From NCBI RefSeq assembly GCF_900105145.1, contig NZ_LT629752.1, positions 2,628,001 through 2,692,000 of the forward strand: a DNA stretch of 64,000 nucleotides, written 5' to 3'. A model generated the notes under the pieces. It worked only from the letters and a program-made list of their open reading frames with translations, ran no database searches and was not told the DNA's origin. This stretch comes from Polaribacter sp. KT25b (GTDB taxonomy: Bacteria > Bacteroidota > Bacteroidia > Flavobacteriales > Flavobacteriaceae). Shown piece by piece: positions 34,572-58,555 of the stretch. A program made the position numbers and the translations under genes. Positions within the stretch are counted from its first letter, which is position 1, and each line of letters begins with the position of its first letter.

Positions 34572-34608
34572 GATATTTAAAAAGCAAAATGATGGTTTTA
34601 AGCAAAAC
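34572..34608 (+). repeat. Direct repeat of the HTCS gene's 3' end
   Basis: Bases 34572-34608 repeat 34012-34052 with few differences; both contain GCAAAATGATGG followed by TTTTxAGCAAAA. In the first copy this spans the HTCS stop codon. It is probably the tail of the decayed second HTCS. Part of the proposed operator of the next gene lies in this copy. Confidence 0.7.
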
Positions 34609-34655
34609 AATGATGAATATCAGAAAGTAGATAAAGTAGTTAAAATCTAAATTTG
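34595..34655 (+). promoter_or_regulatory. Proposed HTCS operator and promoter of the 986-residue secreted protein gene
   Basis: Half-sites GTTTTAAGCAA (34595-34605) and AATATCAGAAA (34616-34626) are 21 bp apart, start to start. TAAATTTG at 34648-34655 follows after exactly 21 bases and matches TAnnTTTG. The ATG is at 34684. The same layout recurs at six other promoters in the locus. Confidence 0.6.
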
Positions 34656-34683
34656 TGACCACTAATTATTTAAACTAAAATTA

Positions 34684-37644
34684 ATGATCATGAAAAAACA
34701 CTTACTTAAAATTTTTAAAAAGAAAAAAACAGCATTTTTGCTACTGGCTTTTATAGGCTTGTGTAGTTTTCAAGCAAATGCGCAAAAAACTACTAATTAT
34801 TTAGATACAACTTCAGATGGGTTATGGGCTACAGTAGGTAACTGGAGTAATGGCTTGCCAATTGCTGGTGATGGAGATGTAGCAAATCTTACAGAAAGTG
34901 TAGATTTAGGAGGCGTTAACCGTGAAATAGGGCAACTTCTTGGTGCAAACAATACTAATACTAAGACATATTCTAATGGTACATTAACTCTTAATGGTAC
35001 TACAGTGTCAAATACTGATCAGATTATAAGAATTCGATCTAATAAAACGATTACTGTTACTTGTGACGTAGTTGTGGGTGTTGATGGCAAAGATATTAAT
35101 ATTAGAAATAATGCGACTTCACAGCTTGTTTTTGATGGTGGATTTGCAATAGGTACTAATACAGTACATGTAGATAATAATAGTACTGCTACTACTGCTC
35201 CTATTCCGGTACAATTTAACGGAGCTGTAACTGGTTCTGGAACTATTAATATAGAGGATCAAAATATATCTACAGGTGCCGCTGCTGATTTTACAGGTTT
35301 TACTGGTAGTATAACTTTTGATGGTACTAATGCTTTACTAACTGTAAATGGTGCAAATACAATTGAAGGTTCAATTGGAGTATTAGCAGGAGCAGATGGT
35401 AATTCTAAGATAGAATTTATGGCTAGCCAAAGTGGTTTGGATAACCTTACAGTAGACACCCAAAATTTAGCAATAGATTTTGATGCTGCTGCAACATCTG
35501 TTGTGTTTTCAGGATATACTACATCAACAACAGAAGGTGTTGTTGATTTACAGAATTATGTATCTGGTTCTTTAAAAATAGGAACTACTGCTACTAGTGT
35601 TCCAGCAGCAGTATTAAGTACATGGACTCTTGATGGTGCAGCTGCAACTTTAACTCAAGATGCAACAGGTGCTATCGTTTTTGCTGGTTGTTCAACTCCA
35701 GATGTTATTACAACTTTAGCAGCAACTGCTGGTGCAGAGTATGTAACTTTAAGTTGGGATGCCCCTACTTGTTTTGATGAAGTTTTAGTAGTAGCTAAAG
35801 AAGGTTCTGCTGTTACAGTTGCACCAACAGGAGATGGTTCAGCATATACAGCAGATGCAGATTTTGGTTCTGGAACAGATTTAGGAACTAGTGAATATGC
35901 AGTTTTTAAAGGAACATCTAATGCAGCAGATATTACTGGATTAACTAAAGGAGGTACAACTTATCATTTTGAAGTATTTACACGTAAAGGGACAACTTGG
36001 AGCGCAGGAGTTACTACAAGTGCAACTACGAATAATATGTATACTTCAACTTCTGGTGGCAATAGTACTGGTCTTAATTGGGAAGATGCCTCTTCTTGGA
36101 TAGCTGGAGTTATACCTAGTTCAACTTCAGACGATGTAACTATTAATACAGGAATAATTATTAATTCAGATGTAGATATAAATAATATTATTATTAATAA
36201 TAGAGTTACTATTAATGCTGGATTTTCTTTAAATGTTAATGACTTACAGCAAAACAGTCAATTTATTTTACAGTCTACATCTGAAGCTTTTGCTAGTGTA
36301 ATAGCAACTACATTAAGTGGTACAGGAACCCTTATTTATAATAGATGGCTAAATGATTCACCTAATAACGATTTAATTTCTTCTCCTGTAAGTGGAGTAC
36401 CATTTAGTTCTGTAGCTGCAGCTTCTAATAATGAAGATAAATTTTTTATTAATCCTTCAGTAGCTGGTAACTACTTTTTTGGACCTTTCAATAATACTAC
36501 TGGTTTGTATGAAACTTACACTACTCCTGATGATGATGCAGTTGTAATTGGTACTGGTAAAGGCTATAGAGCAGCAACTATAGCAGGTGAAGCAAGTACT
36601 GTAAGATTTGTAGGAGATATTGAAATAGGAGATTTAAATATTGATATTACAGATGGTGGTGCTGGAGGTGGTACCCTTGCTGAATGGAATTTAATTGGGA
36701 ATCCTTACCCTTCATATTTAGATTTTGGTGCTTTTTTTACAGCAAATTCAGGTGAATTTCATTTAGATAATGTTGCAGTTTATGGTTGGAATGGTACTGA
36801 TTATACAGTGTGGAATGGAACAAATTCTTCTGATAAATTAACACCAGGCCAAGGTTTCTTTGTAAGAACTAAAGATGCTACAACTGGTAATGTAGATTTT
36901 ACAACAGCAATGAGAACAATTGGTAATTCTGATGATTTTGTTGCAGGTAAATCAGCTAACAGTAATAGAGCTTTAGCAAAAATTAATTTAAGTAGATCAA
37001 CTAAAACATATGCTACAAACGTTTATTTTATAGAAAACAAAACTAAAGGTTTAGATTTTGGATTTGATGCTGGTGCTTATTCTGGCAGTGCAACAGGTAT
37101 TTATACAAACTTAGTAGAAGATAATAAAGGTTTAGCATTAGCAATACAATCTTTACCTTATGAAGATTATAATAATATTGTTGTACCAGTTACTATTAAT
37201 AGTGATGCAGGTGAGCAATTAACAATTAGTATTGATAAAAAATCATCTACGTTACCTGAAAACACCTATGTATTCCTTAAAGATAATGTGTTAAATACTA
37301 CTACTTTGTTAAACGACTCTGATTATCTGTTTACACCAGATACTGCATTAAGTGGATCAGGACGTTTCTTTTTAGAATTCTCTGCTAGCTCAGTATTGTC
37401 TACAGATGAGTTTGCTGTAAATGAAATGTTAATTTATACAAACCAAGCAACTAAATCAATTATTATTAAAGGATTATTAAAAACGGATGCAAGTGCAAAA
37501 GTATTTGATATACAAGGTAGAATGGTATTAGAACAAAAAATAGAAAGTACTAATATTACAAATGTAATTAATGCTAATTCATTAAATACAGGAATTTACT
37601 TGATACAGTTAGAGGGAAGAACTCAAAAAGTTATCATTAATTAA
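34684..37644 (+). CDS. Large T9SS-exported protein with FN3-like domain, function unknown
   Basis: This 986-residue protein starts MIMKKHLLK with a signal peptide ending near QANAQ. Residues 35-310 are rich in N, T and G with repeating beta-strand patterns. A fibronectin III-like domain lies near 338-455 (TTLAATAGAEYVTLSWDAPT). A beta-rich region and a module of about 430 residues near 540-910 resemble the C-terminal part of the 1101-residue protein. A T9SS type A sorting domain ends it (VFDIQGRMVLEQ to GIYLIQLEG). No catalytic motif is visible. It is the first gene after the HTCS and is probably a surface or released glycan-binding protein. Confidence 0.75.
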   Translation: MIMKKHLLKIFKKKKTAFLLLAFIGLCSFQANAQKTTNYLDTTSDGLWATVGNWSNGLPIAGDGDVANLTESVDLGGVNREIGQLLGANNTNTKTYSNGTLTLNGTTVSNTDQIIRIRSNKTITVTCDVVVGVDGKDINIRNNATSQLVFDGGFAIGTNTVHVDNNSTATTAPIPVQFNGAVTGSGTINIEDQNISTGAAADFTGFTGSITFDGTNALLTVNGANTIEGSIGVLAGADGNSKIEFMASQSGLDNLTVDTQNLAIDFDAAATSVVFSGYTTSTTEGVVDLQNYVSGSLKIGTTATSVPAAVLSTWTLDGAAATLTQDATGAIVFAGCSTPDVITTLAATAGAEYVTLSWDAPTCFDEVLVVAKEGSAVTVAPTGDGSAYTADADFGSGTDLGTSEYAVFKGTSNAADITGLTKGGTTYHFEVFTRKGTTWSAGVTTSATTNNMYTSTSGGNSTGLNWEDASSWIAGVIPSSTSDDVTINTGIIINSDVDINNIIINNRVTINAGFSLNVNDLQQNSQFILQSTSEAFASVIATTLSGTGTLIYNRWLNDSPNNDLISSPVSGVPFSSVAAASNNEDKFFINPSVAGNYFFGPFNNTTGLYETYTTPDDDAVVIGTGKGYRAATIAGEASTVRFVGDIEIGDLNIDITDGGAGGGTLAEWNLIGNPYPSYLDFGAFFTANSGEFHLDNVAVYGWNGTDYTVWNGTNSSDKLTPGQGFFVRTKDATTGNVDFTTAMRTIGNSDDFVAGKSANSNRALAKINLSRSTKTYATNVYFIENKTKGLDFGFDAGAYSGSATGIYTNLVEDNKGLALAIQSLPYEDYNNIVVPVTINSDAGEQLTISIDKKSSTLPENTYVFLKDNVLNTTTLLNDSDYLFTPDTALSGSGRFFLEFSASSVLSTDEFAVNEMLIYTNQATKSIIIKGLLKTDASAKVFDIQGRMVLEQKIESTNITNVINANSLNTGIYLIQLEGRTQKVIIN

Positions 37645-37704
37645 ATTATAACTGAACACTTTAAATTCTTTAAACCTTTAATAATAATATTTAAAACATA
37701 TAAA

Positions 37705-37856: not shown

Positions 37857-37962
37857 ATAAATTTAAAATAATAATCAATTTAAAAACTAGATATTATTTC
37901 ATAATTTTTAAAAAATATGAAATTATGAATTAATATCTTTAACCTTATAAAATACAAACATC

Positions 37963-38420: not shown

Positions 38421-38627
38421 AAATAACAAATTGTAAACTCGAATTGTTCATTTAATAGTTAGTATGTTAGAAGAGTATAATGCCTTGAAAAACCACATTG
38501 TTAATGCCCTTATAATTTAAAAACATTGTTTAATAATTGTTTTTATGTCTTATAAACTTCTTACTAATAAAGAGAACTGCTATTCAATAAAGTTTAAATA
38601 GATTGCCTCATTTTATTTTTACATTCT
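38421..38627. other. AT-rich gap upstream of the tandem promoters
   Basis: Between the terminator and the first operator pair I see no gene, RNA or repeat that I can support. Confidence 0.4.
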
Positions 38628-38688
38628 ATAAAGAGCAATAAAAAGATGGAATTGAGTAAATCATAAGGAGTAATTAACCTTTAATTTG
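38628..38688 (+). promoter_or_regulatory. Proposed distal HTCS operator and promoter of the 1101-residue gene
   Basis: Half-sites ATAAAGAGCAA (38628-38638) and GAATTGAGTAA (38649-38659) are 21 bp apart, and after exactly 21 bases comes TTAATTTG (38681-38688), one base from TAnnTTTG. It lies about 115 bases upstream of the start, in front of a second site of the same layout. Confidence 0.5.
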
Positions 38689-38723
38689 TTTTCAAAATAT
38701 TGACTATCATCAAATTTTAGACT

Positions 38724-38784
38724 GATTTCAGTAAGAAATTGTTTAATTAGAGAAAGTACAACATTCCTATTTCAATAATATTTG
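38724..38784 (+). promoter_or_regulatory. Proposed proximal HTCS operator and promoter of the 1101-residue gene
   Basis: Half-sites GATTTCAGTAA (38724-38734) and AATTAGAGAAA (38745-38755) are 21 bp apart. AATATTTG (38777-38784) follows after exactly 21 bases, and the ATG is at 38804, 19 bases further on. Confidence 0.65.
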
Positions 38785-38803
38785 CAAAAAAACCATCAAA
38801 AAT

Positions 38804-41800
38804 ATGATTAAAAAGGTATATTTAATAGTTATATTTTCATGCATCTGTATATGCTCTTTACAAGCACAACATCTTTGGTACGAAAATGAAACAGACACAG
38901 AGAATATTATATTTTCGAACTCTGGAAATGGTACTTTTTCTATTAACGAAACCAATCCAGATACCAGTGGTATAAACACAAACGCATTAACTTCTAAGTT
39001 TGTTAGAGAAGCAAATGTTACCAAAGGTTTTTCTTATTTTGAATTATCAAAAAACCTTTTAGAAGATGTAACATATACGATAAGCCTTAAAGCATATGTA
39101 GATATACCAACTGAAAATTTGACAAGTATAAATCGAATACGTTTCTATATAAAAAATACAACTACAGGAGATCTTAAGGCAATTCAATTAAAATTTTCAA
39201 AAGGCCAAGAATGGGAAGAGTTTTCGTTTGTTTTTAACGAAGGTGATTTACCTTCTAAAGGATTTTTAGAGGATGGTTACAATCAAGTATATATAGGTTA
39301 TGGAAATGGACAAGGATCAACATCAGAAGTTACTTATTATATAGATCAAATATATGGTTCAGTTTTACAGGAAATAGTTGTGCCAGATCCACTTGAAGAA
39401 GATCCACTTGTAAATGTACTAAAAGGATCATGGGGTGGACGTTTTTATGTAAGAGGAGGCGAAGACTTAGATGAATATGTTGACAACAGAGGCTATGATT
39501 ATATAGCAGGTGCTCAAGAAATTGCTGATAGTTACCCTACAATGGGGCATGTAATTACCAATGGTACTAATAATGCAAATTCACATTTGTGGACTTTAAG
39601 AACAAATCCTAATGTAGATGCTGTAATGGGAGCTACAGGTTCTGTTGTAGATGAAGAATTTGTACCGAGTTTAGCTAATGAACAAATTATTATTGATGTT
39701 ATTGATATCTTTAAAAAATCAGGTAAAAAAGTAATCTTATATATAAACTCTTTAAGCCCAGGAGATAGAGCATCAGATGAAGGGGCAGCATCCTGGAATA
39801 ACTATGTAGATACATATTTTGATGGTAATAATCATGAAGCATGGATGAATTATTGTGAAGGTTATATTAAACGTTTTACAGAATTAGGAGTTGATGGTTA
39901 CTGGTTTGATACATTTGGACAATATGCTAGAAATAATAGTCTTGGAAGTGCTGGTGTTGATACGACTGATGAAGAAAAAAATGAGTTTGTAGAAATGATT
40001 CGTAATACAGCTCCTAATGCTATTATAGCAAATAATAAAGATAAACATCAGTTTCTAGATGAAGACGGCGAGCTAATACTTGTTGATACTGATGGAGTTA
40101 ATGAAACGGTAGGTATTGATTATAATGATCTAGCTGAAGGTGAAGATGATGATGATATACCTTTTGAGGAAGATGAAAGAGATTATGCTATAATAAAAAT
40201 GCAAGCAACAAACCCCTGGTCAGACTTTACAGCAGGACATATTACTCCTTTAGGACAAGGAGCTCCTCCTAATTCTTGGGCGTATGAAGAATTCACAGTA
40301 CCAGATATTGAAGAAAATCATATAACTATTTATGAAGAAAATTCTAAACAAACATTAAAACATTTATTTTTACCTATAAGAGCTACTTGGTCTAGCGAAA
40401 GGTCTAACTTAATGTTTGATAAAGAACAAGCGTATCGTTTTGCTAAAAGAATTACAGATGCAGGAGGATCCGTTACCTTTTCAAATACAACATCTACAGA
40501 TGGTACTACCTCAGATGACGAGGTAGAAATATTAACATATATAGATCAACAATTTGCCATCAATGCAGATGCAACCGTTTATCAACGTCCTGCAGGTGCC
40601 TTTCTTGTTGGAGAAGATCATACATTAAATACTTGGAGTGGATTTTCAGATTCAAATTGGCTTACTGCTTCAAATTGGAGTAAAGCTACAGTACCAGTGC
40701 TTACAGACAATATTAGAATACCTGTAGATGCGCCAAATTACCCTACAATAACTACTACAGTTTCCGTAAACAGCGTTTCTATAGAAAATAGTGCTTCTTT
40801 ATTGTACAATGGTGGTTCTTTAACAGCAACAGAAGGTGTAAATTACAGTATTTCAGTAACAGATACAAACTGGCATTTAGTAACTTCACCTGTTTCAGGA
40901 GAAAATTATAATGATGATTGGGTTACTGATAATTCAATTGCTTCAGGTACAACTAATTCTGAAAATAGAGGAATTGCAACCTACCAAAACGGAACAGCAA
41001 CAGGAAACTGGCTTTATATGCAAGGTGGTACTAGCGCAACTTTTGGTGATGGTGTTGGTTATTCATTATTATGTAGTACTGGAACAGGAAATTTTACTTT
41101 TACGGGTACAGCAAATTCTTCAAGTATGGCGCCAGCCATTAGTCAAAATGGTACTAATTTTTGGAATTTAATAGGAAACTCATATACTTCTTATTTAGAT
41201 GTTGCTGCTTTTATTACAGCAAATTCTACTAATTTTGGAGGTGCTTATCAAGCAATTTATGTTTGGGATGGCAGTTCTTATCTAGCAAAAACTACTGGTT
41301 ATGTATATCCAGGTCAAGCTTTTTTTATAAGTGCAAGTACTACAGGTACAAATGCTTCTTTTACTACAGCAATGCAAAGTCATCAAAATGATATTACTTT
41401 TCTTAAAAGTTCTAATACAGAAACTTCTATTGAGATAAGTATAACTGATGGCACAAATAATAAAGCTACAACAATTAATTATTTAGATGAAAAAACACTA
41501 GGGTTAGATCCAGGTTTTGATATTGGAATGTTTGACGGTGTTTCTTCAGAATTAAGTTTGTATACTCAATTAGTAGAAAACAATGAAGGAACTGCATTTG
41601 CAAGACAAACAGTACCTAATTCAGAGATAGAAACTACTGTAATTCCTTTAGGAATAAAAGCAACAGTAAGTAAAGAAATTACGTTTACTGCAGAAGCCTT
41701 AAACTTACCTTCTGGTATAAATGTTTATTTAGAAGACAGACAAGAAAAAACATATACACGTTTAGATGAAGCAAATGCTAAATATAAAGTAACCTTATCT

Positions 41801-42109
41801 GAAAGTTTAAATGGTTCTGGTAGATTCTATATTCATACTTCTACAAATAGTGTATTAAGTATTGATAGTGCTATTTTAGAAAGTATAGGTATTTATAAAA
41901 CGAATAATTCTAAGTTGAAAATAACAGGTTTATCTCAAGGAAAATCTACAGTTAAATTATTTAATATTCTTGGTAAACAAATGATGGAGACTTCATTTGA
42001 GTCAAGTGGAAGTGATACTATTCCTTTACCAGATTTAGCTACAGGAATCTATATTATTCAATTAAAAACGACCTCAGGAGTACTGAACAAGAAAATAATT
42101 TTAGAATAA
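38804..42109 (+). CDS. Secreted multidomain protein: binding module, putative TIM-barrel glycosidase, long C-terminal module, T9SS sorting domain
   Basis: This 1101-residue protein has a signal peptide (ends CSLQAQ). Residues 22-190 form a beta-sandwich-like module (WYENETDTENIIF, RIRFYIKN, WEEFSFVF, YYIDQIYGS). Residues 205-610 look like a TIM barrel: KKVILYINS, then DGYWFDT (Asp near 367, reminiscent of fucosidase nucleophile strands), PNAIIANN and GAPPNSWAYEEFT. The next 430 residues resemble the end of the 986-residue protein, and a T9SS sorting domain closes it (VKLFNILGKQ to GIYIIQLK). It is a paralogue of the 663-residue protein. I suspect an endo- or exo-acting glycosidase on sulfated fucan, possibly near GH29 or GH168, but cannot assign a family. 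Confidence 0.75.
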   Translation: MIKKVYLIVIFSCICICSLQAQHLWYENETDTENIIFSNSGNGTFSINETNPDTSGINTNALTSKFVREANVTKGFSYFELSKNLLEDVTYTISLKAYVDIPTENLTSINRIRFYIKNTTTGDLKAIQLKFSKGQEWEEFSFVFNEGDLPSKGFLEDGYNQVYIGYGNGQGSTSEVTYYIDQIYGSVLQEIVVPDPLEEDPLVNVLKGSWGGRFYVRGGEDLDEYVDNRGYDYIAGAQEIADSYPTMGHVITNGTNNANSHLWTLRTNPNVDAVMGATGSVVDEEFVPSLANEQIIIDVIDIFKKSGKKVILYINSLSPGDRASDEGAASWNNYVDTYFDGNNHEAWMNYCEGYIKRFTELGVDGYWFDTFGQYARNNSLGSAGVDTTDEEKNEFVEMIRNTAPNAIIANNKDKHQFLDEDGELILVDTDGVNETVGIDYNDLAEGEDDDDIPFEEDERDYAIIKMQATNPWSDFTAGHITPLGQGAPPNSWAYEEFTVPDIEENHITIYEENSKQTLKHLFLPIRATWSSERSNLMFDKEQAYRFAKRITDAGGSVTFSNTTSTDGTTSDDEVEILTYIDQQFAINADATVYQRPAGAFLVGEDHTLNTWSGFSDSNWLTASNWSKATVPVLTDNIRIPVDAPNYPTITTTVSVNSVSIENSASLLYNGGSLTATEGVNYSISVTDTNWHLVTSPVSGENYNDDWVTDNSIASGTTNSENRGIATYQNGTATGNWLYMQGGTSATFGDGVGYSLLCSTGTGNFTFTGTANSSSMAPAISQNGTNFWNLIGNSYTSYLDVAAFITANSTNFGGAYQAIYVWDGSSYLAKTTGYVYPGQAFFISASTTGTNASFTTAMQSHQNDITFLKSSNTETSIEISITDGTNNKATTINYLDEKTLGLDPGFDIGMFDGVSSELSLYTQLVENNEGTAFARQTVPNSEIETTVIPLGIKATVSKEITFTAEALNLPSGINVYLEDRQEKTYTRLDEANAKYKVTLSESLNGSGRFYIHTSTNSVLSIDSAILESIGIYKTNNSKLKITGLSQGKSTVKLFNILGKQMMETSFESSGSDTIPLPDLATGIYIIQLKTTSGVLNKKIILE

Positions 42110-42948: not shown

Positions 42949-43003
42949 TCAAAAAAAAATACAAACCACTACTAATCAAAAACTTATAATTTATTTAAAA
43001 TAT

Positions 43004-43064
43004 AAAGAGAGCAAGGCAATGATTGATTTAAGCAAAGCTAAACACTTAATTTCAACTATTTTTA
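43004..43064 (+). promoter_or_regulatory. Proposed HTCS operator and promoter of the 476-residue gene
   Basis: Half-sites AAAGAGAGCAA (43004-43014) and GATTTAAGCAA (43025-43035) are 21 bp apart. TATTTTTA (43057-43064) follows after exactly 21 bases, and the ATG is at 43097. Confidence 0.6.
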
Positions 43065-43096: not shown

Positions 43097-44527
43097 ATGA
43101 AAAAACAATTACTTACTAGCCTTTTATTTTTATTAGCATCAATAACTACGGTTGCACAAACTTGGTATGACGTTGATAATGGAGTTACGGATTTAACATT
43201 TACATCTACTTGTGATGGATGTTCTGTTTCAACAGTTGCAAATCCTGACGCCACCGATACAGAAGCTACAAATGTACTATTATGGAAAATTGCAGCAGAC
43301 ACAACATTAGATACAGCAGGATTAACTGATGATGAAATAGCAGCATTAAAAATAGGAAACAAAGATCTTAGTTTTAGTTTTCCTAACGGTTATGTACTTA
43401 CGCCAGCTGATTTCGCTAGTTTGAGTGTAAACGTACGTTTATATATGCCAGATATAACTAATTACTCTAACTTTGATTCATTAACTCGTATTAGGTTTTA
43501 TTTAGGGACTCAACAAGTACAAGTAAAACTTTCAGATTTAGAAGGTACAGATGTAAATGGTTGGTACACTTTAACCTTTGATTTTAGTGGAAAAACGTAT
43601 ACAGAAAACGTAACTTCGGGTTATATTAGAATCCTTGGTCAATCTAACAGATTTACAAATTTAAATAACGATATTGACTTTCACTTTGATACGTTTACAA
43701 GTTCAGTAGCATTATCATTAGACCAAGGAGCAGTTTTAGATGCAGAAGCAGTTTTAGATGCTGGAAATGCGTGGTACCATAACTATAGCCCAGATACATT
43801 TGGCGTAACAGTTAATGAAGTACAAGGTGGTGTGTTTTTAGAACAAGGAGATGCAGTAACTACACCAACTACTACAGGAAACAGCAGTCCATTAGTTGCT
43901 AAGTTTACAAAAGGAGAAGATCCACACTCACAAATAAAGTTTCAATTACCAGGTGTAATTGATACAGACTATCAATCTGGTGCTATTTTTAAAATTAGAG
44001 CCTATGTACCGTCAACAAATGTAGATGGAACTTCTGGTAGAAGGTTAAGAATGTATTTGCGAAATGGAACTGATAATGCAGGGCAAAAAAACATAACAAT
44101 TGATGTTACTGTTTTTGATGCATGGCAAGAATATACTTTTGATTTTACAGAAGTAAACCTTACCGAAGGAGTGTCTTATAGTACTGCAAATTTATTAATT
44201 GATCAACCAGATGCTGATCTTCTTGCTACAGGAAATGTATATTATTTTGATGCTTTTCAAGGACCAGCTGCAGCTATATTATCTGTAGATAACTTTGAAC
44301 TAAGTAACGCTTCTATTGTTGCGTATCCTAATCCTGCAACAAACAGTTTTCAAATAGATTCTAGTTTAGATATTGAAAATGTAAAATTATATAATATTAA
44401 TGGACGTTTAGTAAAAACGTTTAAAGCGAACACTAATTATGATGTTAGTAACTTAGCAAAAGGAATTTACATTGTAGATATTAAGACTCTTAAAGGTTTA
44501 AAAACTTTAAAAATTGTAAAAGAGTAA
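43097..44527 (+). CDS. T9SS-exported protein with two tandem putative carbohydrate-binding modules
   Basis: This 476-residue protein has a signal peptide (ends TTVAQ), two beta-sandwich-like modules of about 170 residues (22-205 and 220-395), and a C-terminal sorting domain (AYPNPATNSFQIDSS to GIYIVDIKTLKG). Both modules begin near a WY pair (TWYDVD, AWYHNY) and share RxRFY/RLRMY, a WYTLTFDF/WQEYTFDF strand and a late DxF, as do the N-termini of the two TIM-barrel-like proteins. No catalytic domain is present, so I infer a surface glycan-binding protein. A truncated copy of its gene lies at 46942. Confidence 0.75.
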   Translation: MKKQLLTSLLFLLASITTVAQTWYDVDNGVTDLTFTSTCDGCSVSTVANPDATDTEATNVLLWKIAADTTLDTAGLTDDEIAALKIGNKDLSFSFPNGYVLTPADFASLSVNVRLYMPDITNYSNFDSLTRIRFYLGTQQVQVKLSDLEGTDVNGWYTLTFDFSGKTYTENVTSGYIRILGQSNRFTNLNNDIDFHFDTFTSSVALSLDQGAVLDAEAVLDAGNAWYHNYSPDTFGVTVNEVQGGVFLEQGDAVTTPTTTGNSSPLVAKFTKGEDPHSQIKFQLPGVIDTDYQSGAIFKIRAYVPSTNVDGTSGRRLRMYLRNGTDNAGQKNITIDVTVFDAWQEYTFDFTEVNLTEGVSYSTANLLIDQPDADLLATGNVYYFDAFQGPAAAILSVDNFELSNASIVAYPNPATNSFQIDSSLDIENVKLYNINGRLVKTFKANTNYDVSNLAKGIYIVDIKTLKGLKTLKIVKE

Positions 44528-44611
44528 ATATGTATTTTAAAATAACTCAATAGTATTAAAACCCTCTTGAGATAAGATTTATTTTTTAAATCAAAATTCT
44601 ATAAAATTTAT

Positions 44612-44647
44612 AAAAAAAAGGTAGTAATTTATATTACTGCCTTTTTC
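44612..44647 (+). terminator. Terminator after the 476-residue gene
   Basis: An A run plus GGTAGTAA pairs with TTACTGCC (one G-T pair) plus a T run around a TTTATA loop. Confidence 0.8.
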
Positions 44648-44674
44648 TGTTAAGACAAATAACTTTTTTACTTT

Positions 44675-44710
44675 ATTATAAGTATGATCATCATTATAAG
44701 TATGATCATC
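44675..44710 (+). repeat. Perfect 18-bp tandem repeat upstream of a sulfatase gene
   Basis: ATTATAAGTATGATCATC is present twice in a row and ends 22 bases before the sulfatase start. Each unit holds the palindrome TGATCA. It could be a regulator site, but it does not match the operator pair seen at the other promoters, and no clear TAnnTTTG element is near. Confidence 0.8.
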
Positions 44711-44732
44711 AATAAATAAAATTATTTATATA

Positions 44733-50269: not shown

Positions 50270-50330
50270 CAAAAATAAAAGGATCTTCGATAATCAATTT
50301 GCTCTAAACAATCAATTATTTACGCTATGA
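50270..50330 (-). promoter_or_regulatory. Proposed HTCS operator and promoter of the 995-residue sulfatase gene
   Basis: On the minus strand, half-sites TCATAGCGTAA (50320-50330) and GTTTAGAGCAA (50299-50309) are 21 bp apart, and TATTTTTG (50270-50277) follows after exactly 21 bases. The ATG is 25 bases further on. Confidence 0.65.
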
Positions 50331-50382
50331 TTACAATTACCTTTTAATGTGTAAAATAATTATTCGATACTGTTTGATTAAT

Positions 50383-52374
50383 TTATTTTGTTATTATTAT
50401 TTTTCGTGTTAAACTTTGATTATTACTGTTAGTAAGTTTAACAAAATACATTCCTGATTTTAATGTAGACAAATCTAATTGTGTTATTAAAGCTCCATCA
50501 TCCCATAACTTTTCTAATACTTTTGTTCCTGTAACAGACACAACAATTATGTTTGAGATACCAGTTGCAGTCTTTGTAATGGTTAACGCATCAACCACCG
50601 GATTGGGATACAAGTTAATTTGAGGTAAATTGGATTTGGAATTAATATAATCATCAGTTGATGAAAGAGTTTTGTCGATTTCTCCAACAAGATAAGCCCC
50701 TTCAGGTCTTACATAAGGCTCATAATCCGGCACAGGATTAGATAAAAGTCTGTCATTAATTGTTTTCATAATTACCATTTCGTCATCCTTAATATGTCCA
50801 GCATCAACACCATTATTATTATTATTAGATATCGTATTGGCAAAAGTAACACCAGCTTTAGCATCGATAAGAATTTTAGAAAACCTGTATGCATCTTCTA
50901 TCCCGAATATTAAATTTGCACTAGAAACATGCCATTTGTCTCTAATAGGAAACCATGCATGTTTTAGTACTTGTTTTTTTTCATACACTGACCAAGGATT
51001 ACCAACCATAGCAGGGATTGTAAACTCTTCGTATCCCCATGAATTTGGAGGAGCACCACCACCTAGTGCAGATACATGTCCTCTTGTAAAATCTGAATAA
51101 GAGTTATTTCCTCTAAAGTTTGAGACATTATAGTCTCTATCGTCTTCATCATCAACTCCATCAGAATCAACCACAACTGGTTCTCCTTCTATATAATGTA
51201 AATGTCCAAATTCAGAAACTGACATAGCAGCTCCAGGATCGGCATCTTTAAACATTTGAACAAAATCTTCTAAATACCCATCGTCGCGAAGCGAAGTTGT
51301 AGTATCGAACCAATATCCATCGGCATATTCTGCTACTGCAGGAATAAACCCTTGGACTAAATTTTTGTAAGCTAAATATTCATTTCCATCAAACTTTGTT
51401 GTGTAATAATTTACCCAAGCAGCTTGTGTTTCATCACTTGCTCTGTCTAAATAATTTGTAGAAATGTACAAAATAATCTTCTTTCCAGAATTTTTTAGTG
51501 TTTGTAGAACTTCAAACATTATTTCTTGATTCTCAGCACTAGGTATTAAACTTTCATGTATTTCAGTAGCTACATCTACATTTGTATTATCTCTGATAGT
51601 AAAATAGTGTGAATGTGCAAAATAAGAAAGATTTGTAATCACATGTCCTAAAGCAGGAAGTTCTGTTACTAGCTCATTTACACCTCCTATTGGGTCATGT
51701 CCTGTTGCTATTTCTTCATCTAATCTTTCTCCACCAAAAACAGGAAATGTGCCTCCCCATGAACCTGCTAACCATGCCGCTGGATGATTTACTGTTGTTG
51801 CAGTTTGATCTGTTGATCCATATATTTCATCAAAATAATAACTCATAGCTGGTTCTTCTATACTACCGTTAGCTAAACCAATTATCATAAGGTCATACCC
51901 TCCAACATCTAGTACATTTTGTGGAATAGCAACATCTTGAAAATGAAAGGTAAAAGTTTCCCATTCTTGCCCAACTGTGAATTTCAATTGCTCATAAACA
52001 CGTCCTCCTGCATCAGAACTTTGAAAAAACACTCTAAGTTTTGAGTTGTTTGTAGTAAGCTCATCAGTAGGTATGTCAATATATGCTTTTAGTGTAACTG
52101 TATAATCGGTTAAATCTGTTACATAATTGAACAAGTTAAAAGATAAAAAATCATTGGTCCCTTCAGGTCTATTGTACTTAGAGACAATAGTATGTGTGTT
52201 AATTCCTGAAGTATGAGGGTTTGGAAAGTTTCCTGTTAAATTTGTGGGTACATCTTCTTCGGCTGTAAACTCAATTTTACGCGTATTTGTTTCATCTTCC
52301 AACCACAAAAATTGTGCGTTAGAAATTTGTACAGAAAAAAGGAATACTATTAAAAACGTAATTTTTTTGATCAT
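50383..52374 (-). CDS. Secreted protein with binding module, putative TIM-barrel glycosidase and T9SS sorting domain
   Basis: This 663-residue protein is a paralogue of the 1101-residue protein. Its signal peptide ends SNAQ. Residues 22-190 form the shared module (FLWLEDETNTRKIEF, WETFTFHF, YYFDEIYGS). Residues 200-585 form the shared barrel-like domain (GHVITNLSYFAHSHYF, KKIILYIS, DGYWFDT near 355, GGAPPNSWGYEEFTIP, ITDxxAGVTFANT-type end). It goes straight to a T9SS sorting domain (NLYPNPVVDALTITK to GMYFVKLTN), without the long extra module of its sister. The conserved WFD Asp in both supports an active enzyme. The family is not identified; fucan activity is inferred from context. Confidence 0.75.
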   Translation of the reverse strand: MIKKITFLIVFLFSVQISNAQFLWLEDETNTRKIEFTAEEDVPTNLTGNFPNPHTSGINTHTIVSKYNRPEGTNDFLSFNLFNYVTDLTDYTVTLKAYIDIPTDELTTNNSKLRVFFQSSDAGGRVYEQLKFTVGQEWETFTFHFQDVAIPQNVLDVGGYDLMIIGLANGSIEEPAMSYYFDEIYGSTDQTATTVNHPAAWLAGSWGGTFPVFGGERLDEEIATGHDPIGGVNELVTELPALGHVITNLSYFAHSHYFTIRDNTNVDVATEIHESLIPSAENQEIMFEVLQTLKNSGKKIILYISTNYLDRASDETQAAWVNYYTTKFDGNEYLAYKNLVQGFIPAVAEYADGYWFDTTTSLRDDGYLEDFVQMFKDADPGAAMSVSEFGHLHYIEGEPVVVDSDGVDDEDDRDYNVSNFRGNNSYSDFTRGHVSALGGGAPPNSWGYEEFTIPAMVGNPWSVYEKKQVLKHAWFPIRDKWHVSSANLIFGIEDAYRFSKILIDAKAGVTFANTISNNNNNGVDAGHIKDDEMVIMKTINDRLLSNPVPDYEPYVRPEGAYLVGEIDKTLSSTDDYINSKSNLPQINLYPNPVVDALTITKTATGISNIIVVSVTGTKVLEKLWDDGALITQLDLSTLKSGMYFVKLTNSNNQSLTRKIIITK

Positions 52375-52471
52375 AATGTTAGTGATTAGGTTGGTTCATT
52401 ACTTAAATTAGAAACGTAATTTTCAATATTTATGACATAGTAAAAATTCCTTTTTCTTTGATTGAAATTTA

Positions 52472-54310
52472 TTATTTAACTTGTATTGCTTTCGTTGCAA
52501 ATATTTTTGTGGTTTTTTGGTAACCGGCATCTGGATAACTAATCAAATAATTATTCTCATCCACTAAATTAAATACATAATGGGTTGTTCCTTTTGGTAA
52601 GGTTACAGAAACTTTATTATTGGTAAGATTCATAGTAACAGGAAACCAAATTTCACCTTTTACACCTCCATTTTTAGTATATATTAACTCTGCTTTTACA
52701 ACTTTAGCACCATTGTTTTTGTATTCTAACCAAACTTCTTTTCCATCCACACCATTTTTAACAACAGTAGGTATTTTAGCTTTGTTAGGTAATTGTGCTT
52801 TACTTGTAGGGTTTAAATAAGGATATCTAGCATTTAGTTTTTCTAATCGTTCTTCTAAAAGACGATTCATTTCTTTGGCTTTCTCTGGCATTTTTTTTGC
52901 AAGATTTTTAGCCTCTTCAATATCTACACGTTCAGATTCATTTTTATACAATTCATACAAAGCTAACTCCGTTTTTTCTTCAGTAGCAACATATTCTCGT
53001 ACCAATTTATAACCATCAATACGCAACGTAGATTGCATAGAACTGTTTGGAAAATGCCACATCATCGTATTTCTCGCTTTACCAGTTTCTGGATCTAAAA
53101 CTAATTTTGAATCCGTTGGATCTTTATCTAACAATGTAGACAAATCGGCACCATCTAATATTTGATTGTCTTCTTTTTGGGTTCCTGTCCAACTCAATAT
53201 TGTAGGATAAAGGTCAAGACCATTTACCATTACGTTAGATTCTATATTTGAAGAAATTGTTGGACCTTTTACAATAAAAGGAACTCTGGTACCTCCTTCT
53301 TTAGCATTGATTTTCCCTTTATCTAATGGATAGTTGTCTGTAATAATTTCACCAGTATGTTGCTCCATACCTCCATTATCAGAAGTAAAAACCACATACG
53401 TATTTTCAATTAACATATGTCCAGGCCATCTTGGGTCTTCAGTTTGTTCAAGGTACTTAATCAATAAACCTGTATAATGGTCAATCGTTTCTACCATGGC
53501 AGCATAATAGGCATTTCTTTGTCCTTTTTCTTCCCAAAGATCCTTTTCTTTAGGATAATCTATTCCTAATTTCTGGTAGTATTTTTTTAATAAAGCTTCA
53601 CTTCTTGTATGAATTGGTGTATGCACTAAACGAGAAGCATAAAAAAGAAAAAATGGATCTTTTTTGTTTCCATCCATAAAATCAATACCATCTTGAGTAA
53701 TGTCATCAAAAGGGAAACCTGCTTCATCTAAATAAAATGGATCAGATTTGTCGGCAGTTGAGAACCCTTTTGTGCGGTCTTTCATTCTTTTATGAGATCC
53801 AAAACCATGCTTTGAGAAATCAAAACCTTGATCTTTCGGTTCTGGATAGTCTGTTACTGCAATACCTACATGCCATTTACCAGAATGACCTGTTTTGTAA
53901 CCATTGGTTTTAAGAGACTCTGCAATGGTAACTTCTGATGTGTCTAAAGCACCTCTCATCCAAGGACTTATTAATAAAGATCCATAATTAAAAGGCAATG
54001 GTGGATGACCTCCTCTAACGCTAGTTCTTTCTAGACGAACAGGATGTTTACCTGATAAAATAGCTCCTCTAGAAGGAGAACAAACAGTTGCAGCAGAATA
54101 AGCTTGCCAAAAAAGAACGCCTTCTGTAGCTAATTTATCAATATTTGGTGTTTCGAATGGAGAAGGTTCGTCAATATCGTAACACTTTACATCTTGCCAA
54201 CCTAAATCATCAGTTAATATTACTAATACATTTGGCTTTTTTGGTCTTTCTTGTGCAAAACTGCTTGATGTAACTAAACAAGCCATTACTAATAGAAATA
54301 CTTTTTTCAT
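52472..54310 (-). CDS. S1-type sulfatase (periplasmic)
   Basis: This 612-residue protein has a signal peptide (TSSSFAQ). Key motifs are LTDDLGWQDVK near 32, formylglycine site CSPSR near 76, GKWHVG near 143 and TSDNGGMEQ near 310. It is the closest relative of the 637-residue lipoprotein sulfatase on the other strand, sharing DPRWPGH, DNYPLDKGKINAKEGGTRVP and the C-terminal beta domain. The two may attack the same linkage in different places, or differ in specificity after duplication. It is probably in the operon running from the GH95-like gene, 24 bases after the 511-residue sulfatase gene. Confidence 0.92.
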   Translation of the reverse strand: MKKVFLLVMACLVTSSSFAQERPKKPNVLVILTDDLGWQDVKCYDIDEPSPFETPNIDKLATEGVLFWQAYSAATVCSPSRGAILSGKHPVRLERTSVRGGHPPLPFNYGSLLISPWMRGALDTSEVTIAESLKTNGYKTGHSGKWHVGIAVTDYPEPKDQGFDFSKHGFGSHKRMKDRTKGFSTADKSDPFYLDEAGFPFDDITQDGIDFMDGNKKDPFFLFYASRLVHTPIHTRSEALLKKYYQKLGIDYPKEKDLWEEKGQRNAYYAAMVETIDHYTGLLIKYLEQTEDPRWPGHMLIENTYVVFTSDNGGMEQHTGEIITDNYPLDKGKINAKEGGTRVPFIVKGPTISSNIESNVMVNGLDLYPTILSWTGTQKEDNQILDGADLSTLLDKDPTDSKLVLDPETGKARNTMMWHFPNSSMQSTLRIDGYKLVREYVATEEKTELALYELYKNESERVDIEEAKNLAKKMPEKAKEMNRLLEERLEKLNARYPYLNPTSKAQLPNKAKIPTVVKNGVDGKEVWLEYKNNGAKVVKAELIYTKNGGVKGEIWFPVTMNLTNNKVSVTLPKGTTHYVFNLVDENNYLISYPDAGYQKTTKIFATKAIQVK

Positions 54311-54334
54311 GATGATAATTCCTTAATTATAAAA

Positions 54335-55870
54335 CTAGTTTAGCTCAGACACAAGGGTTTTACATCGTTCTCTATATTCGTTTAAAACTTTGATGTAGTC
54401 TTTATTACCTACTAAATTATTTTGTTCTTTTGGGTCTTTTATAATATCGAATAATTCCTCGTAAATAGGTTGTTCGTTATTATTTGAAGATTGATTTGGA
54501 ACATATTTATTTCGGTCATTTAATTTACTAAAAGAACGAATGTATTTGTATTGTTTACTTCGTACGCCTTCTTGACGCGGATATCCTTGGTCTGTAAATA
54601 AGTTTTCTAAAAAGATGTCATCTCTCCATTTTACATTCTTCTTTTCTATCAAAGGAAGCACACTTGCTCCTTGATAAGATGTAGGGATATTTACACCACA
54701 CATTTCTAAAAGTGTAGCAGGAATATCTTGACCAACCACCAAATCATCTATTACTTTTCCTTGTGTTTTATCAGTAAAAAAAGGAGAATACACAATCATA
54801 GGAACGTGTACAGATTCATCGTACAAAATAGTTTTACCACCTAATCCGTGTTCACCTAAAAACAAACCATTGTCTGAACAAAATACAATAACGGTATTAT
54901 CCGCTTCGCCAATTTCCTTTAAAAATGAACGTAAATTTCCTATCATGATATCTATAGCATGAATTGCTCTGGTCATTTTTAGTTTCTCATTTAGTAATTT
55001 ACCCTTTTTAGATGTAATGTAGTATTTCATTAAATCTTTGGTGGCATAAACATCTTCAGGCAAACTAATGTTTTGAGGATATCCTTCTGGTAATTCAATT
55101 TTATCTTTTACATCATCATATCCTGTTTTGTAATATTCTGGGTCTGTTTCATGTGAACCCATTCCGCCAATACTAGAAGCATGAGGTAGATTTAAGTTAA
55201 TCCATGCAGAAAAAGGTTCGTTAGGGTCTCTTTTCTTAATTTGATTTTTAATAGAGGCATCAGCATTTTTATAAAAATAATCATAAGCATCTCCTTGTGT
55301 TAAAAAAGCCTTAGTTGCCTCTAACATTCCTTCAACTTGTGTTTCGTTTTTAAGGTTTGCAAACTGTTTATGTTTTTTTGCTGGATAAAACCCTAAATGA
55401 CCATTTCCATAGTAACAAAAATCTACATCTTTTCTTAAAGGCGTATCATTTCTATCTCCTATTTTTGTGTGATGTTTTCCTATAAAAGCGGTTGAGTATC
55501 CTGCTTTTTTTAATTGCGCCAGCCAGCTATTTTTATAGGTAGTTTCAGAAATAAGATTTTTAGAAACATTCGTAAATCCAATTTTATTTCTTCGTTCCCA
55601 TTGTCCTGTAAATATATTTGCTCTACTTGGGCCACAAATAGGGCTAGTAATATAAGCATTGTTAAAAAAGACTCCTTCTTTAGCTAATTCATCAATATTT
55701 GGAGTTTGAATAATAGGATCTCCAGTCATACTCAAAGAATTGAATCTTTGATCATCAGAAAAGATAAAAATAACATTAGGTTTCTTCTCTTGCGCTTGCA
55801 CAATTTGTGTTACTCCAGTACATGACAAAATAGAAGAAATAATAAATAGATGATATAAAATTGTTTTCAT
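54335..55870 (-). CDS. S1-type sulfatase
   Basis: This 511-residue protein has a signal peptide with a cysteine in IISSILSCTGV, so it may be a lipoprotein; otherwise cleavage is after QAQ near residue 27. Motifs are FSDDQRFNSL near 38, formylglycine site CGPSR near 79, GKHHTK near 127 and FCSDNGLFLGEHG near 325. The CGPSR site and EHGLGGKTILYDESVHVPM stretch resemble iduronate- or choline-type S1 groups more than its neighbours. It lies eight bases after the GH95-like gene, so they share a transcript and probably a substrate. Confidence 0.9.
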   Translation of the reverse strand: MKTILYHLFIISSILSCTGVTQIVQAQEKKPNVIFIFSDDQRFNSLSMTGDPIIQTPNIDELAKEGVFFNNAYITSPICGPSRANIFTGQWERRNKIGFTNVSKNLISETTYKNSWLAQLKKAGYSTAFIGKHHTKIGDRNDTPLRKDVDFCYYGNGHLGFYPAKKHKQFANLKNETQVEGMLEATKAFLTQGDAYDYFYKNADASIKNQIKKRDPNEPFSAWINLNLPHASSIGGMGSHETDPEYYKTGYDDVKDKIELPEGYPQNISLPEDVYATKDLMKYYITSKKGKLLNEKLKMTRAIHAIDIMIGNLRSFLKEIGEADNTVIVFCSDNGLFLGEHGLGGKTILYDESVHVPMIVYSPFFTDKTQGKVIDDLVVGQDIPATLLEMCGVNIPTSYQGASVLPLIEKKNVKWRDDIFLENLFTDQGYPRQEGVRSKQYKYIRSFSKLNDRNKYVPNQSSNNNEQPIYEELFDIIKDPKEQNNLVGNKDYIKVLNEYRERCKTLVSELN

Positions 55871-55878
55871 AATTAATT

Positions 55879-58254
55879 TTAATAAGAACTGTAATATGTA
55901 TGACCAGGTAATCTTTTTGTTTTGCTACCATACCCAAAAAGATTCTGCTCTTCTTTAGATTTTGGTAACTCTTTTATGCTTAAATCTGTTTTGTTTATTT
56001 CTTTGGAAGTAATAATAACCGATTCATTTTTCTTTAGATCAACTTTATAAGAACCATCTTCGGATTTATTAATAGTAACAGATTTTCCGTCGATATAAAA
56101 CTGCGGATTTTCAAAATCTACTTGAACGTTACATGCGTTTCCTTTTAAACTTTTTATGGATACAAATTCGGTAGTTCCTTCAATTTTTTTAGCACTCACC
56201 AAAAATGCGCCTTGTGCTCTTAAGTTGTGAAACGCCACATCTTTCCATTTTTTCGGACTAGCAGGAAATACGCGTATTTTTCCGCCCCAACTTTGAAGCA
56301 TCACATCGTGTACACTAGTTGCAAAAGATAACGGACTTTCAATAACCGGATTAATTTTTCCTTCGGAATACATGGTTGTAGATGAAATGTTTTTATGTTT
56401 GATTAAAAAATCAAGATAATAATACGCTTTCTCAGCATCACCTAAATTTGCATACATAGAAGAGGCTCCTGTTGCTGTATAACCTGTAACTGGCATGGCC
56501 TTAATCTTTTTGCCACTATTAAACGTAACATCCAACCAATGATCTAAAGATGTACGTAGCAATTTTTTATCAGCTTCTTTTTCTGGTGTAATTACCATTA
56601 AAGGATAAAATGCTAATAAATGGGAATAATGTCTGTGCGGATTTGCAAAAGGTCTGTCTTTTCCAACCATCAATCCATTTTCATCAACTTGAAAATCAAC
56701 CAAATTAGTTAGTAAATGCTCCCATTCTTTTTTAAGAGGGTCGTTTATTTGATGCTTTTCATCAATATCGATTAATGTTTGACAGCTCCAACGAATTAAA
56801 GCCAACGTAAAATTAATATCTTGACCACGACCTGGTTTATATTCTGGCGACCAACTATATTTAATATGAATTTTGCCGTCTTTGGCATCAACAGGATTGT
56901 CTTTTATATAATTTAAATAACTATTTACCGTTTTTTTCAAGATAGGAAATAGTTTATCTCGCATACGAATATCATCACCAGCAAATTGGCAATGCAACCA
57001 ATAATCGTTTAAGATCCATGCTAACATATCTGGTACTTTTGCTCCGTTAAAAGCAATAAGATCTTGCGGCATTAAAGCAGCAACGGCAGCACTGTTTTTC
57101 CAACTTGCAGGTACATTATTTTCTAGGTTTTTTACATATTTATCAATGTTATTGGGTAAAGATTCTCCAATAGACATTCTATTGGCTGTTAAATGCGTCC
57201 AATAGATGAGTTGCACATTTAAATCTCCCCAAACCATTGGCCAAAAAGTTCTATTATACCAAGGTCCCATTAAATCTAAAATAGGTCCATTTCCTCTAGA
57301 GGCAGATCCTAGTTTATACATTTGTATCCAATAGAAAGATTCTTTTTCTGCATCATTAATGGTTAAAAAACTCAATGGATAATAGTCATGCCACCATTTT
57401 TTATGTGATGAAATAAAGCTATTTTCTTTAATAAGCTTCTCTCCTACTTCTAAATTTTCAGTAACGATCTCTAGCGAATTTCGTTCTGGATAACTATGAT
57501 GAACGCTCGTTATTAATTGTTGTTTTCCAGAAGAATTCCCTGTAATTTTATAACCTGTAGTGGTTTCTCCTCTATGATTAAATAAAGGTTGATAACAAAA
57601 AGAGTAGCCGTTTTTCTCGCTAAATGTTGGTTTTGGAGCCATCTCTAAAGTTACTGCTCTCATTTTATCCCAAGTGCCACCTTTTGGACCTCCGCCACTT
57701 TTTAAGACTTCATAAACAGGAGGAATAGGTTCTTCTGCGTGCCATGTTATTTCTACGTTTTCATCAGTTGTATCTGTTTCAAAATAGATATTATCATTTG
57801 TACTATGCGTAAAACCTTTAATTGAATAAGTTCCTTTAGAGGTTTTAATAGTACCTGTTAATTCTGCATTCCACAAATCTAAACGCATGTCAACTCCTGT
57901 AATTTTTCCTTTAGATGTTAATTGAAAATGACCAAGAGGCAATCTGCTTCTTTTGATCCAAAGCATTTCATCAGCCTTTGTTTTTGCCTCTCTATGATCG
58001 TAATAATCATGACGTCCAATATGAAGAGATATTACATTTTTTTCTGATTCTTGTGCTTGATAAAATAAAAAACCAATATTTCCATTACCTGAATAAGGAG
58101 CGGTTTGCCATTTGTCTGGTACAATATCCCAAAGCATGTCATGCTTAGATAAAAATGATTCGAAATCAACTTTAAAATCAACTTGTTTTTCTTGAGAAGA
58201 AAACGGAATTGAAAATAAAATAAAAATACAAAGAAATAAAACTTTTAACTTCAT
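55879..58254 (-). CDS. GH95-like alpha-L-fucosidase or alpha-L-galactosidase
   Basis: This roughly 791-residue protein starts best at ATG 58254 (MKLKVLFLC, a clear signal peptide); ATG 58263 would add three residues. The GH95 hallmarks are an N-terminal beta-rich region (SGNGNIGFLFY), the barrel motif GDLNVQLIYW, NPHRHYSHLLAFYPL near 545 and the C-terminal LQSWGGKIRVFPASPKKWKDV then AFHNLRAQGAFLVSA. GH95 enzymes invert and remove alpha-1,2-fucose or L-galactose ends. It heads the minus-strand operon with two sulfatases and the TIM-barrel-like paralogue, which supports a sulfated fucose-rich substrate. Confidence 0.88.
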   Translation of the reverse strand: MKLKVLFLCIFILFSIPFSSQEKQVDFKVDFESFLSKHDMLWDIVPDKWQTAPYSGNGNIGFLFYQAQESEKNVISLHIGRHDYYDHREAKTKADEMLWIKRSRLPLGHFQLTSKGKITGVDMRLDLWNAELTGTIKTSKGTYSIKGFTHSTNDNIYFETDTTDENVEITWHAEEPIPPVYEVLKSGGGPKGGTWDKMRAVTLEMAPKPTFSEKNGYSFCYQPLFNHRGETTTGYKITGNSSGKQQLITSVHHSYPERNSLEIVTENLEVGEKLIKENSFISSHKKWWHDYYPLSFLTINDAEKESFYWIQMYKLGSASRGNGPILDLMGPWYNRTFWPMVWGDLNVQLIYWTHLTANRMSIGESLPNNIDKYVKNLENNVPASWKNSAAVAALMPQDLIAFNGAKVPDMLAWILNDYWLHCQFAGDDIRMRDKLFPILKKTVNSYLNYIKDNPVDAKDGKIHIKYSWSPEYKPGRGQDINFTLALIRWSCQTLIDIDEKHQINDPLKKEWEHLLTNLVDFQVDENGLMVGKDRPFANPHRHYSHLLAFYPLMVITPEKEADKKLLRTSLDHWLDVTFNSGKKIKAMPVTGYTATGASSMYANLGDAEKAYYYLDFLIKHKNISSTTMYSEGKINPVIESPLSFATSVHDVMLQSWGGKIRVFPASPKKWKDVAFHNLRAQGAFLVSAKKIEGTTEFVSIKSLKGNACNVQVDFENPQFYIDGKSVTINKSEDGSYKVDLKKNESVIITSKEINKTDLSIKELPKSKEEQNLFGYGSKTKRLPGHTYYSSY

Positions 58255-58318
58255 AGGAAACATTGTAAATTAAGGTTTTTAATCAGTCTTAAATTTATTA
58301 GCTTGATTAAATGTAGTA

Positions 58319-58380
58319 CAAATATATCCTATACACTAAAGAAACCTTTACTCTAATCATTCAAATACTTTTCTTTAATG
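58319..58380 (-). promoter_or_regulatory. Proposed HTCS operator and promoter of the GH95-sulfatase operon
   Basis: On the minus strand, half-site GATTAGAGTAA (58348-58358) lies exactly 21 bases before TATATTTG (58319-58326). A second half-site CATTAAAGAAA (58370-58380) lies 22 bp upstream of it, one base more than the other promoters. Confidence 0.7.
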
Positions 58381-58494
58381 CAACATTTCGCTAACATTTA
58401 GTTGATAAACCTAAAAGTTAAACAACTTACTATAAAGCAATAAGCATATATGATAAGAATTCTTATCATCAAGTATGGATATTTATCTCTATTC

Positions 58495-58555
58495 AAAAAG
58501 AGCAACAAAAAGAAGGATTAGAGTAAGCCTGTATTAATGATAAATAATAATTTTA
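58495..58555 (+). promoter_or_regulatory. Proposed HTCS operator and promoter of the divergent sulfatase-GH141 operon
   Basis: Half-sites AAAAAGAGCAA (58495-58505) and GATTAGAGTAA (58516-58526) are 21 bp apart, and TAATTTTA (58548-58555) follows after exactly 21 bases. The GATTAGAGTAA box is identical to the one on the other side of this divergent region. Confidence 0.7.

Follow-up and report, generated by a model that had tools for sequence, protein, structure and literature searches.

Operator-promoters and regulator gene of the locus

We analysed a 64,000-nucleotide stretch of the Polaribacter sp. KT25b genome (contig NZ_LT629752.1, positions 2,628,001 to 2,692,000; hereafter the window), in which a gene for a hybrid two-component system (HTCS) protein is followed by polysaccharide-digestion operons with paired direct repeats in their promoters. 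Positions count from the first base of the window unless given as genome positions. A sequence-only reading had aligned seven such promoters by eye, and its alignment is accurate: all 14 half-sites of 11 bp lie where it had placed them, with G8, A10, and A11 in 14/14 and A7 in 13/14. The period of the repeat is 21 bp in six pairs and 22 bp in one, while the gap between half-site and -7 element is exactly 21 bp in 7/7. This TAnnTTTG-like element matches fully in three promoters and with a single mismatch in the other four. As had also been noted, GATTAGAGTAA recurs identically on either side of the divergent region (58264-58580). The operator-promoters are listed with scores from R1, a profile built purely from the sequences of 34 sites of other genomes, none from this one, and scanned over 3.95 Mb; half-site coordinates on the minus strand are the low ends of the half-sites.

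34590-34655, plus strand: operator-promoter 1; half-sites 34595/34616, -7 at 34648-34655; R1 28.9 bits; precedes the gene for a 986-residue protein with a type IX secretion system (T9SS) sorting domain
38623-38688, plus strand: operator-promoter 2, distal of a tandem pair; half-sites 38628/38649, -7 at 38681-38688; R1 23.5 bits
38719-38784, plus strand: operator-promoter 3, proximal of the tandem pair; half-sites 38724/38745, -7 at 38777-38784; R1 27.9 bits; precedes the gene for an 1101-residue protein
42999-43064, plus strand: operator-promoter 4; half-sites 43004/43025, -7 at 43057-43064; R1 29.2 bits; precedes the gene for a 476-residue T9SS protein
50270-50335, minus strand: operator-promoter 5; half-sites 50320/50299, -7 at 50277-50270; R1 25.6 bits; precedes the gene for a 995-residue sulfatase
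58319-58385, minus strand: operator-promoter 6; half-sites 58370/58348 (period 22), -7 at 58326-58319; R1 22.9 bits; precedes the GH95 run
58490-58555, plus strand: operator-promoter 7; half-sites 58495/58516, -7 at 58548-58555; R1 26.2 bits; precedes the genes for a sulfatase and a beta-helix protein

The fucoidanase-like gene thus has two complete operator-promoters in tandem (38628-38784), 96 bp apart.

Within the window, the seven sites score 19.9-29.9 with leave-one-out matrices, ranking third to seventh among 127,852 positions on both strands. With the full window matrix they reach 27.6-32.8; shifted registers of the sites attain 18.5 and the best unrelated match 14.0. Comparison with shuffled sequence, a check proposed in the sequence-only reading, sets the sites apart: 100 dinucleotide-shuffled windows gave 12 matches of at least 18 in total, i.e. 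0.12 per window versus seven real ones, with a maximum of 20.65 and a mean maximum of 14.8. Nor does the motif occur as often in non-target DNA, as 680 kb of control stretches hold zero matches of at least 18. The two sites that had been accepted with hesitation hold up, both 34595/34616 (leave-one-out 23.5; 28.9 bits with the other-genome model) and 38628/38649 (25.3 and 23.5 bits).

Across the genome, the nine best R1 matches (E 2e-6 to 6e-4) all fall inside genome positions 2662589-2713588 and comprise the seven sites plus 2699101(-) and 2713588(-), which lie 7 kb and 21.6 kb to the right of the window. The tenth match (E 0.002), at genome position 1657974, is within a 710-residue coding frame, presumably methylmalonyl-CoA mutase, and from E 0.016 onward matches are scattered genome-wide. 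The locus accordingly holds nine strong sites, seven in the window and two to its right, and a tenth, weak one precedes a TonB receptor gene. The proposed binder of these sites and the predicted target operons within the window, with domains from Pfam, are the following.

29905-34035, plus strand: HTCS gene; Reg_prop propeller, Y_Y_Y, HisKA, HATPase_c, receiver (Response_reg), AraC-type HTH_18
34684-37644, plus strand: 986-residue protein with T9SS sorting domain
38804-42109, plus strand: endo-fucoidanase-like 1101-residue protein with T9SS sorting domain; P5AFcnA match 2.8e-80
43097-46646, plus strand: 476-residue T9SS protein, then sulfatase; 205-bp gap, single operon assumed
47257-50244, minus strand: 995-residue sulfatase with T9SS tail
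50383-58263, minus strand: four-gene run of GH95, sulfatase, sulfatase, and fucoidanase-like protein (P5AFcnA match)
58581-62702, plus strand: sulfatase and beta-helix/PDZ protein

The product of 29905-34035 unites sensor propeller, kinase, receiver, and AraC-type DNA-binding domain in a single chain, the defining make-up of an HTCS, and the solved structure nearest to its last 150 residues is 12aw, a 'hybrid two-component system protein'. That it is the sole AraC-type protein of the window is borne out, since just one of the 24 HTH_18 matches in the genome falls there, namely the HTCS itself. A weak site at 29825-29884 (matrix 9.1, gap 20) lies 80 bp before the HTCS start. Autoregulation through it is possible; this candidate was not retained, as the weak site with its score of 9.1 at 29825 is the only one found upstream.

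Two proteins among the HTCS neighbours match the solved P5AFcnA, which we take to be a GH107 endo-fucoidanase. To the right of the window, the same region continues with three alpha-L-fucosidases, two GHL15 proteins, nine further sulfatases, a GH141-like protein, and a TonB receptor. With alpha-L-fucosidases, GH95, P5AFcnA-like proteins, sulfatases, and a TonB receptor, the components of a fucoidan utilisation locus are present, and the region is a fucoidan-type digestion locus, its substrate being predicted from gene content. Read by gene order, ten predicted transcription units follow the HTCS: eight with a strong site, one with the weak site, and one, the GH141-like gene, with none.

Half-site structure and co-occurrence with the HTCS subfamily

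The 11-mer described earlier is present in each half-site, but the full unit is 16 bp long and includes a conserved TGA. In 37 sites of relatives (identical copies removed), TGA is found twice ahead of the 11-mers, at columns -26 to -24 and at -5 to -3, 21 bp apart and outside the matrix used for site finding. In the window, a G stands four bases before 11/14 half-sites (7/7 proximal, 4/7 distal; binomial P 2.5e-7), in a column that had been missed earlier and played no part in site selection. The consensus is about TGANNGATTAGAGCAA, a bipartite half-site with TGA as box A and AGNAA as box B. Both boxes stand in the same register in either half-site of the 37 relative sites, as in AraC-type class II operators, with box A being weaker in the distal half-sites of the window (4/7). 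Two boxes about one turn apart are what one AraC-type domain with two helix-turn-helix motifs would read.

Of 397 family genomes, 14, this one among them, encode an HTCS matching at E<=1e-200, and Winogradskyella arenosi (L044, 75%) provides a further relative. A family-wide R1 scan of the 397 genomes, run with stricter filters, gave matches at E<=3e-4 in 13/14 HTCS-carrying genomes vs 3/383 others, the latter with one match each. One extra match, in G212, precedes a sulfatase gene and adjoins a fucosidase site; a more distantly related HTCS (36%) is encoded 24 kb away. The single match in G121, upstream of a gene whose cytochrome domains are of Planctomycete type, may be due to chance, and for the match in G038 no matrix match of 14 was found in L244. 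With the window matrix, 44 sites of at least 20.7 were found in 705 kb flanking 17 related HTCS genes, with at least one in 15/17 loci. At this threshold, control stretches of those genomes (400 kb) had no site, nor had 280 kb of own-genome control or the 160 kb surrounding four further long AraC-type genes of the own genome, two of them of HTCS length.

The geometry is conserved as well. A scan with variable spacings (8 x 8 grid) returned exactly 21/21 for 46 of 50 matches of at least 22 near L124-L153 and for 8/9 in the own locus. In the held-out genomes G397, G398, and G401, which served no training, 23 of 26 matches of at least 19.8 near the HTCS have period 21 and none has 22. The DNA-binding ends themselves have 72-112 of 120-125 residues in common within the subfamily, but 35-46 of 111-120 when compared with three other AraC-type proteins of this genome.

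In G345, a strong operator (matrix 26.1) begins at the HTCS stop codon, and W. arenosi has a weaker one (10.7) there. The corresponding place in the window holds a trace of the motif:

34015-34050, plus strand: apparent operator remnant at the HTCS stop codon; R1 10.3 bits at 34019-34064

Two near-identical stretches of ~34 bp, which include the final codons of the HTCS as well as a half-site, lie ~560 bp apart at 34015-34050 and 34574-34607. With a decayed copy at the HTCS stop and an intact copy 560 bp on, this looks like an operator displaced by insertion or duplication.

The sequence-only reading had tied the motif to neighbouring operons. This part stands, but the predicted regulon reaches at least 21.6 kb past the window and in relatives also includes operons far from the HTCS gene. 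In G207, sites lie ~439 kb from the subfamily HTCS on the same contig; in G002, contig C14 carries ten sites and no HTCS at 1e-130, and may adjoin the HTCS contig, as this genome is in 80 contigs. Among the genes behind these unlinked sites are those for GHL15, alpha-L-fucosidase, TonB receptor, sulfatase, and GH95; of the 15 first genes scanned, three have no Pfam match. Among the first genes downstream of 37 of 46 relative sites are 12 with a T9SS tail, eight sulfatases, five with a TonB plug, and three alpha-L-fucosidases; nine sites were left out of this tally because no open reading frame of 150 residues lay within 320 bp. The first ATG is at most 50 bp from the start of the -7 element in 20/37 relative sites (range 22-278). 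In G207, an operator also lies before the gene for a 290-residue AraC-family protein, back to back with a sulfatase gene (L242:6245-7249), and may place a second regulator under HTCS control.

Proposed mode of activation and alternative explanations

Three lines of evidence argue for the operator assignment made in the sequence-only reading: the top nine genome matches lie in the locus, the motif follows the HTCS subfamily, and its position is that of a class II site. We therefore consider it highly probable that the sites are the operator of the HTCS 29905-34035 and define a fucoidan regulon, a head-to-tail dimer binding just upstream of -33 for class II activation. Features of the kind of HTCS operator described by Ravcheev et al. 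recur here, i.e. a direct repeat near 21 bp before HTCS-adjoining operons and its conservation with the orthologous regulator. In Flavobacterium psychrophilum, TAnnTTTG has been placed at -12 to -5 (PMC9723704). With this placement, the half-sites would lie at about -70 to -55 and -49 to -34. In this borrowed register the proximal half-site would abut or overlap -33/-35, with the gap of 21 in 7/7.

In the mechanism we propose, a fucoidan fragment would be bound by the periplasmic propeller and lead to phosphorylation of the receiver, which would free the AraC-type domain. Two monomers would then sit head-to-tail on the same DNA face, the proximal one occupying the would-be -33 place and contacting the primary sigma factor. 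Operons for fucoidanase, fucosidase, sulfatase, and TonB receptor would be activated in this way, and in some relatives these would include operons not linked to the HTCS gene. For B. fragilis a -33 motif has been deduced, and attempts to identify one in F. johnsoniae did not succeed (PMC7366714); we infer that an activator just upstream of sigma would substitute for it.

Several observations weigh against this assignment. Inside the locus, no operator was detected before the GH141-like 940-residue gene (L160:381-3203, genome 2692381-2695203), and the site of the TonB receptor is weak (R1 E 0.13, window matrix 14.1). In the own genome, a matrix match of 26.9 at L230:5285 sits within a 429-residue reading frame, and L161, the stretch left of the window, has one matrix match of 19.5. 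Among relatives, two of the 17 related loci, G207:C1 (60%) and G345:C1 (42%), have no match of 20.7 in the flanks retrieved, and the fragmentary genome G170 carries the HTCS with no motif found. In the control stretches (680 kb), the free-spacing scan gave four matches of at least 19.9, whose periods (24, 25) are unusual. Further, all 12 motif-positive HTCS-carrying relatives supplied training sites to R1, which makes the positive half of the co-occurrence across genomes circular; this does not apply to the scan of the own genome, to the 383 genomes lacking the HTCS, to the clusters of unlinked sites, or to the genomes kept out of training. As operators, 1657974 and L230:5285 were set aside, both being inside coding frames.

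The sites might instead be bound by a different regulator, either a stand-alone AraC protein or the 562-residue AraC-type protein encoded 6.2 kb left of the window, the HTCS being a mere neighbour. With 24 HTH_18 matches in the genome there are candidates, and in G207 (L242) an AraC gene itself follows a site. However, the motif tracks the HTCS subfamily across genera, an operator lies directly behind the HTCS stop codon in G345 (26.1) and a weaker one in W. arenosi (10.7), and the neighbouring AraC protein shares 25/117 aligned residues with the DNA-binding end of the HTCS. We consider another regulator improbable.

We regard it as still less probable that the repeats belong to the promoter itself, as an upstream element or an unusual -33, and do not serve an activator. 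The proximal box does lie next to the -33 position, and weaker lag-21 self-similarity upstream of TAnnTTTG is also seen in control stretches (z 4.7, 180 elements), but the specific sequence is absent from the 680 kb control (score 18) and from 380/383 HTCS-less genomes. The faintest chance is given to recent duplication of promoter segments, on which the sites would be silent as to selection. The ~34-bp near-duplicate 560 bp apart at the HTCS end would fit such copying, yet no high-identity aligned flanks were found among the eight operators compared (eight of the nine strong own-genome sites, the period-22 site being left out). Mean pairwise identity is low in the N21 spacer (0.32), upstream (0.34), downstream (0.37), and in the distal box A (0.38), as opposed to 0.60-0.71 in half-sites, proximal box A, and -7, and 0.56 in the first five spacer bases. 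Binding by the HTCS of 29905-34035 remains the preferred explanation.

Spacing variants, known systems, and biological meaning

The period of 21 bp is also apparent in a motif-free, phylum-wide comparison. The DNA upstream of 331 TAnnTTTG elements, taken from 79 diverse HTCS loci, is most similar to itself at lag 21 (z 8.9), ahead of lags 11 (z 5.5), 22 (z 3.6), 31 (z 2.7), and 32 (z 2.2). Twenty elements reach at least 10/16 at lag 21, vs seven at lag 22 and 0-4 at 22 other lags, and the lag-21 elements fall in 19 of the 72 loci with such an element. The signal was rejected as exclusive to HTCS genes, because the 180 control-stretch elements show lag 21 as well (z 4.7). Around the other long AraC-type genes of the own genome, no clear set of lag-21 repeats was found. 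In the own-genome control, GTTTTAAC words recur with a lag of 21 in back-to-back promoters (L174:14867-14957), ahead of TATCTTTG/TATATTTG; they may form an operator for some further regulator.

A paralog clade at 42-43% (L042/L043 type), known from five genomes only, has period 22 in 6/6 matches of at least 19.9, vs 1/52 in the main clade, where 50/52 have period 21 (Fisher 2e-7). In held-out genomes, three of five paralog-clade matches of at least 19.8 have period 22 and two have period 21. Judged by eye, three of these nine period-22 matches are inverted repeats. At L277:19930, L277:365, and L155:69, beside a paralogous HTCS clade, the first arm is inverted (ACTCAAATCATGC ... GCATGATTTGAGT) and forms a near-perfect palindrome with a right arm that is the usual half-site. 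We take a spacing difference between paralog clades as a lead only. A tentative and rather doubtful extension would be a shared Bacteroidota HTCS grammar, in which a period-21 repeat stands 21 +/- 1 bp before TAnnTTTG with swappable half-site words, and paralogs with similar recognition helices could be insulated within one genome by geometry (period 22, gap 22, inverted first arm).

Relative to the start of transcription, the sites of XylS at Pm and of araI1-I2 have positions near-identical to those predicted here. XylS binds two 15-bp direct repeats at Pm (PMC5481539). A repeat comprises a box A and a box B, which are contacted by the two recognition helices of one AraC-type domain, a plan shared by the two-box half-site described above; the proximal site is filled first, and XylS interacts with RNA polymerase. 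In contrast, Pm is a proteobacterial promoter with boxes TGCA and GGTA, and XylS is a free AraC-type protein. The direct-repeat design of HTCS operators is already known from Bacteroides, where operators were predicted for 16 HTCSs (Ravcheev et al. 2013, PMC3878776). As described in the available parts of that study, these have two conserved direct-repeat sites around a non-conserved spacer at a mean distance of 21 bp, the mannan HTCSs having two 16-bp sites with a 5-bp spacer. The dimer is described as lying on one DNA face, two turns apart, and the predicted regulons comprise neighbouring and some distant operons. The present case differs in its Flavobacteriaceae-type genome and fucoidan-type targets, the comparison covering geometry. 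No distance to -7 is given in those parts of PMC3878776, and 'transcription start' has no occurrence in its main text, whereas here the distance is fixed at 21. For the Bacteroides proteins BT4124 and BT4663, the receiver keeps the AraC-type domain inactive, as is proposed here, and electrophoretic mobility shift assays showed binding to susCD-homologue promoters (PMC11253607). Half-site geometry is absent from the passages available from that paper. Within open-licence literature, which makes for weak evidence, we found no report of a fixed HTCS operator distance to -7 and no paper joining Zobellia, fucoidan, an HTCS/AraC regulator, and a binding motif.

What is added here is the fixed register to -7, the unlinked targets in relatives, and a hint that one paralog clade differs in geometry. 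From sequence, the targets of an individual HTCS can thereby be mapped, including distant operons in some relatives, with transcript starts predicted to the base. Through its constant distance to -7, the operator also opens class II activation by an HTCS to direct testing. The geometry change between the two paralog clades would, if true, do the same for paralog insulation. Fucoidan is hard to degrade and requires many enzymes, and switching these on jointly matters for algal carbon.

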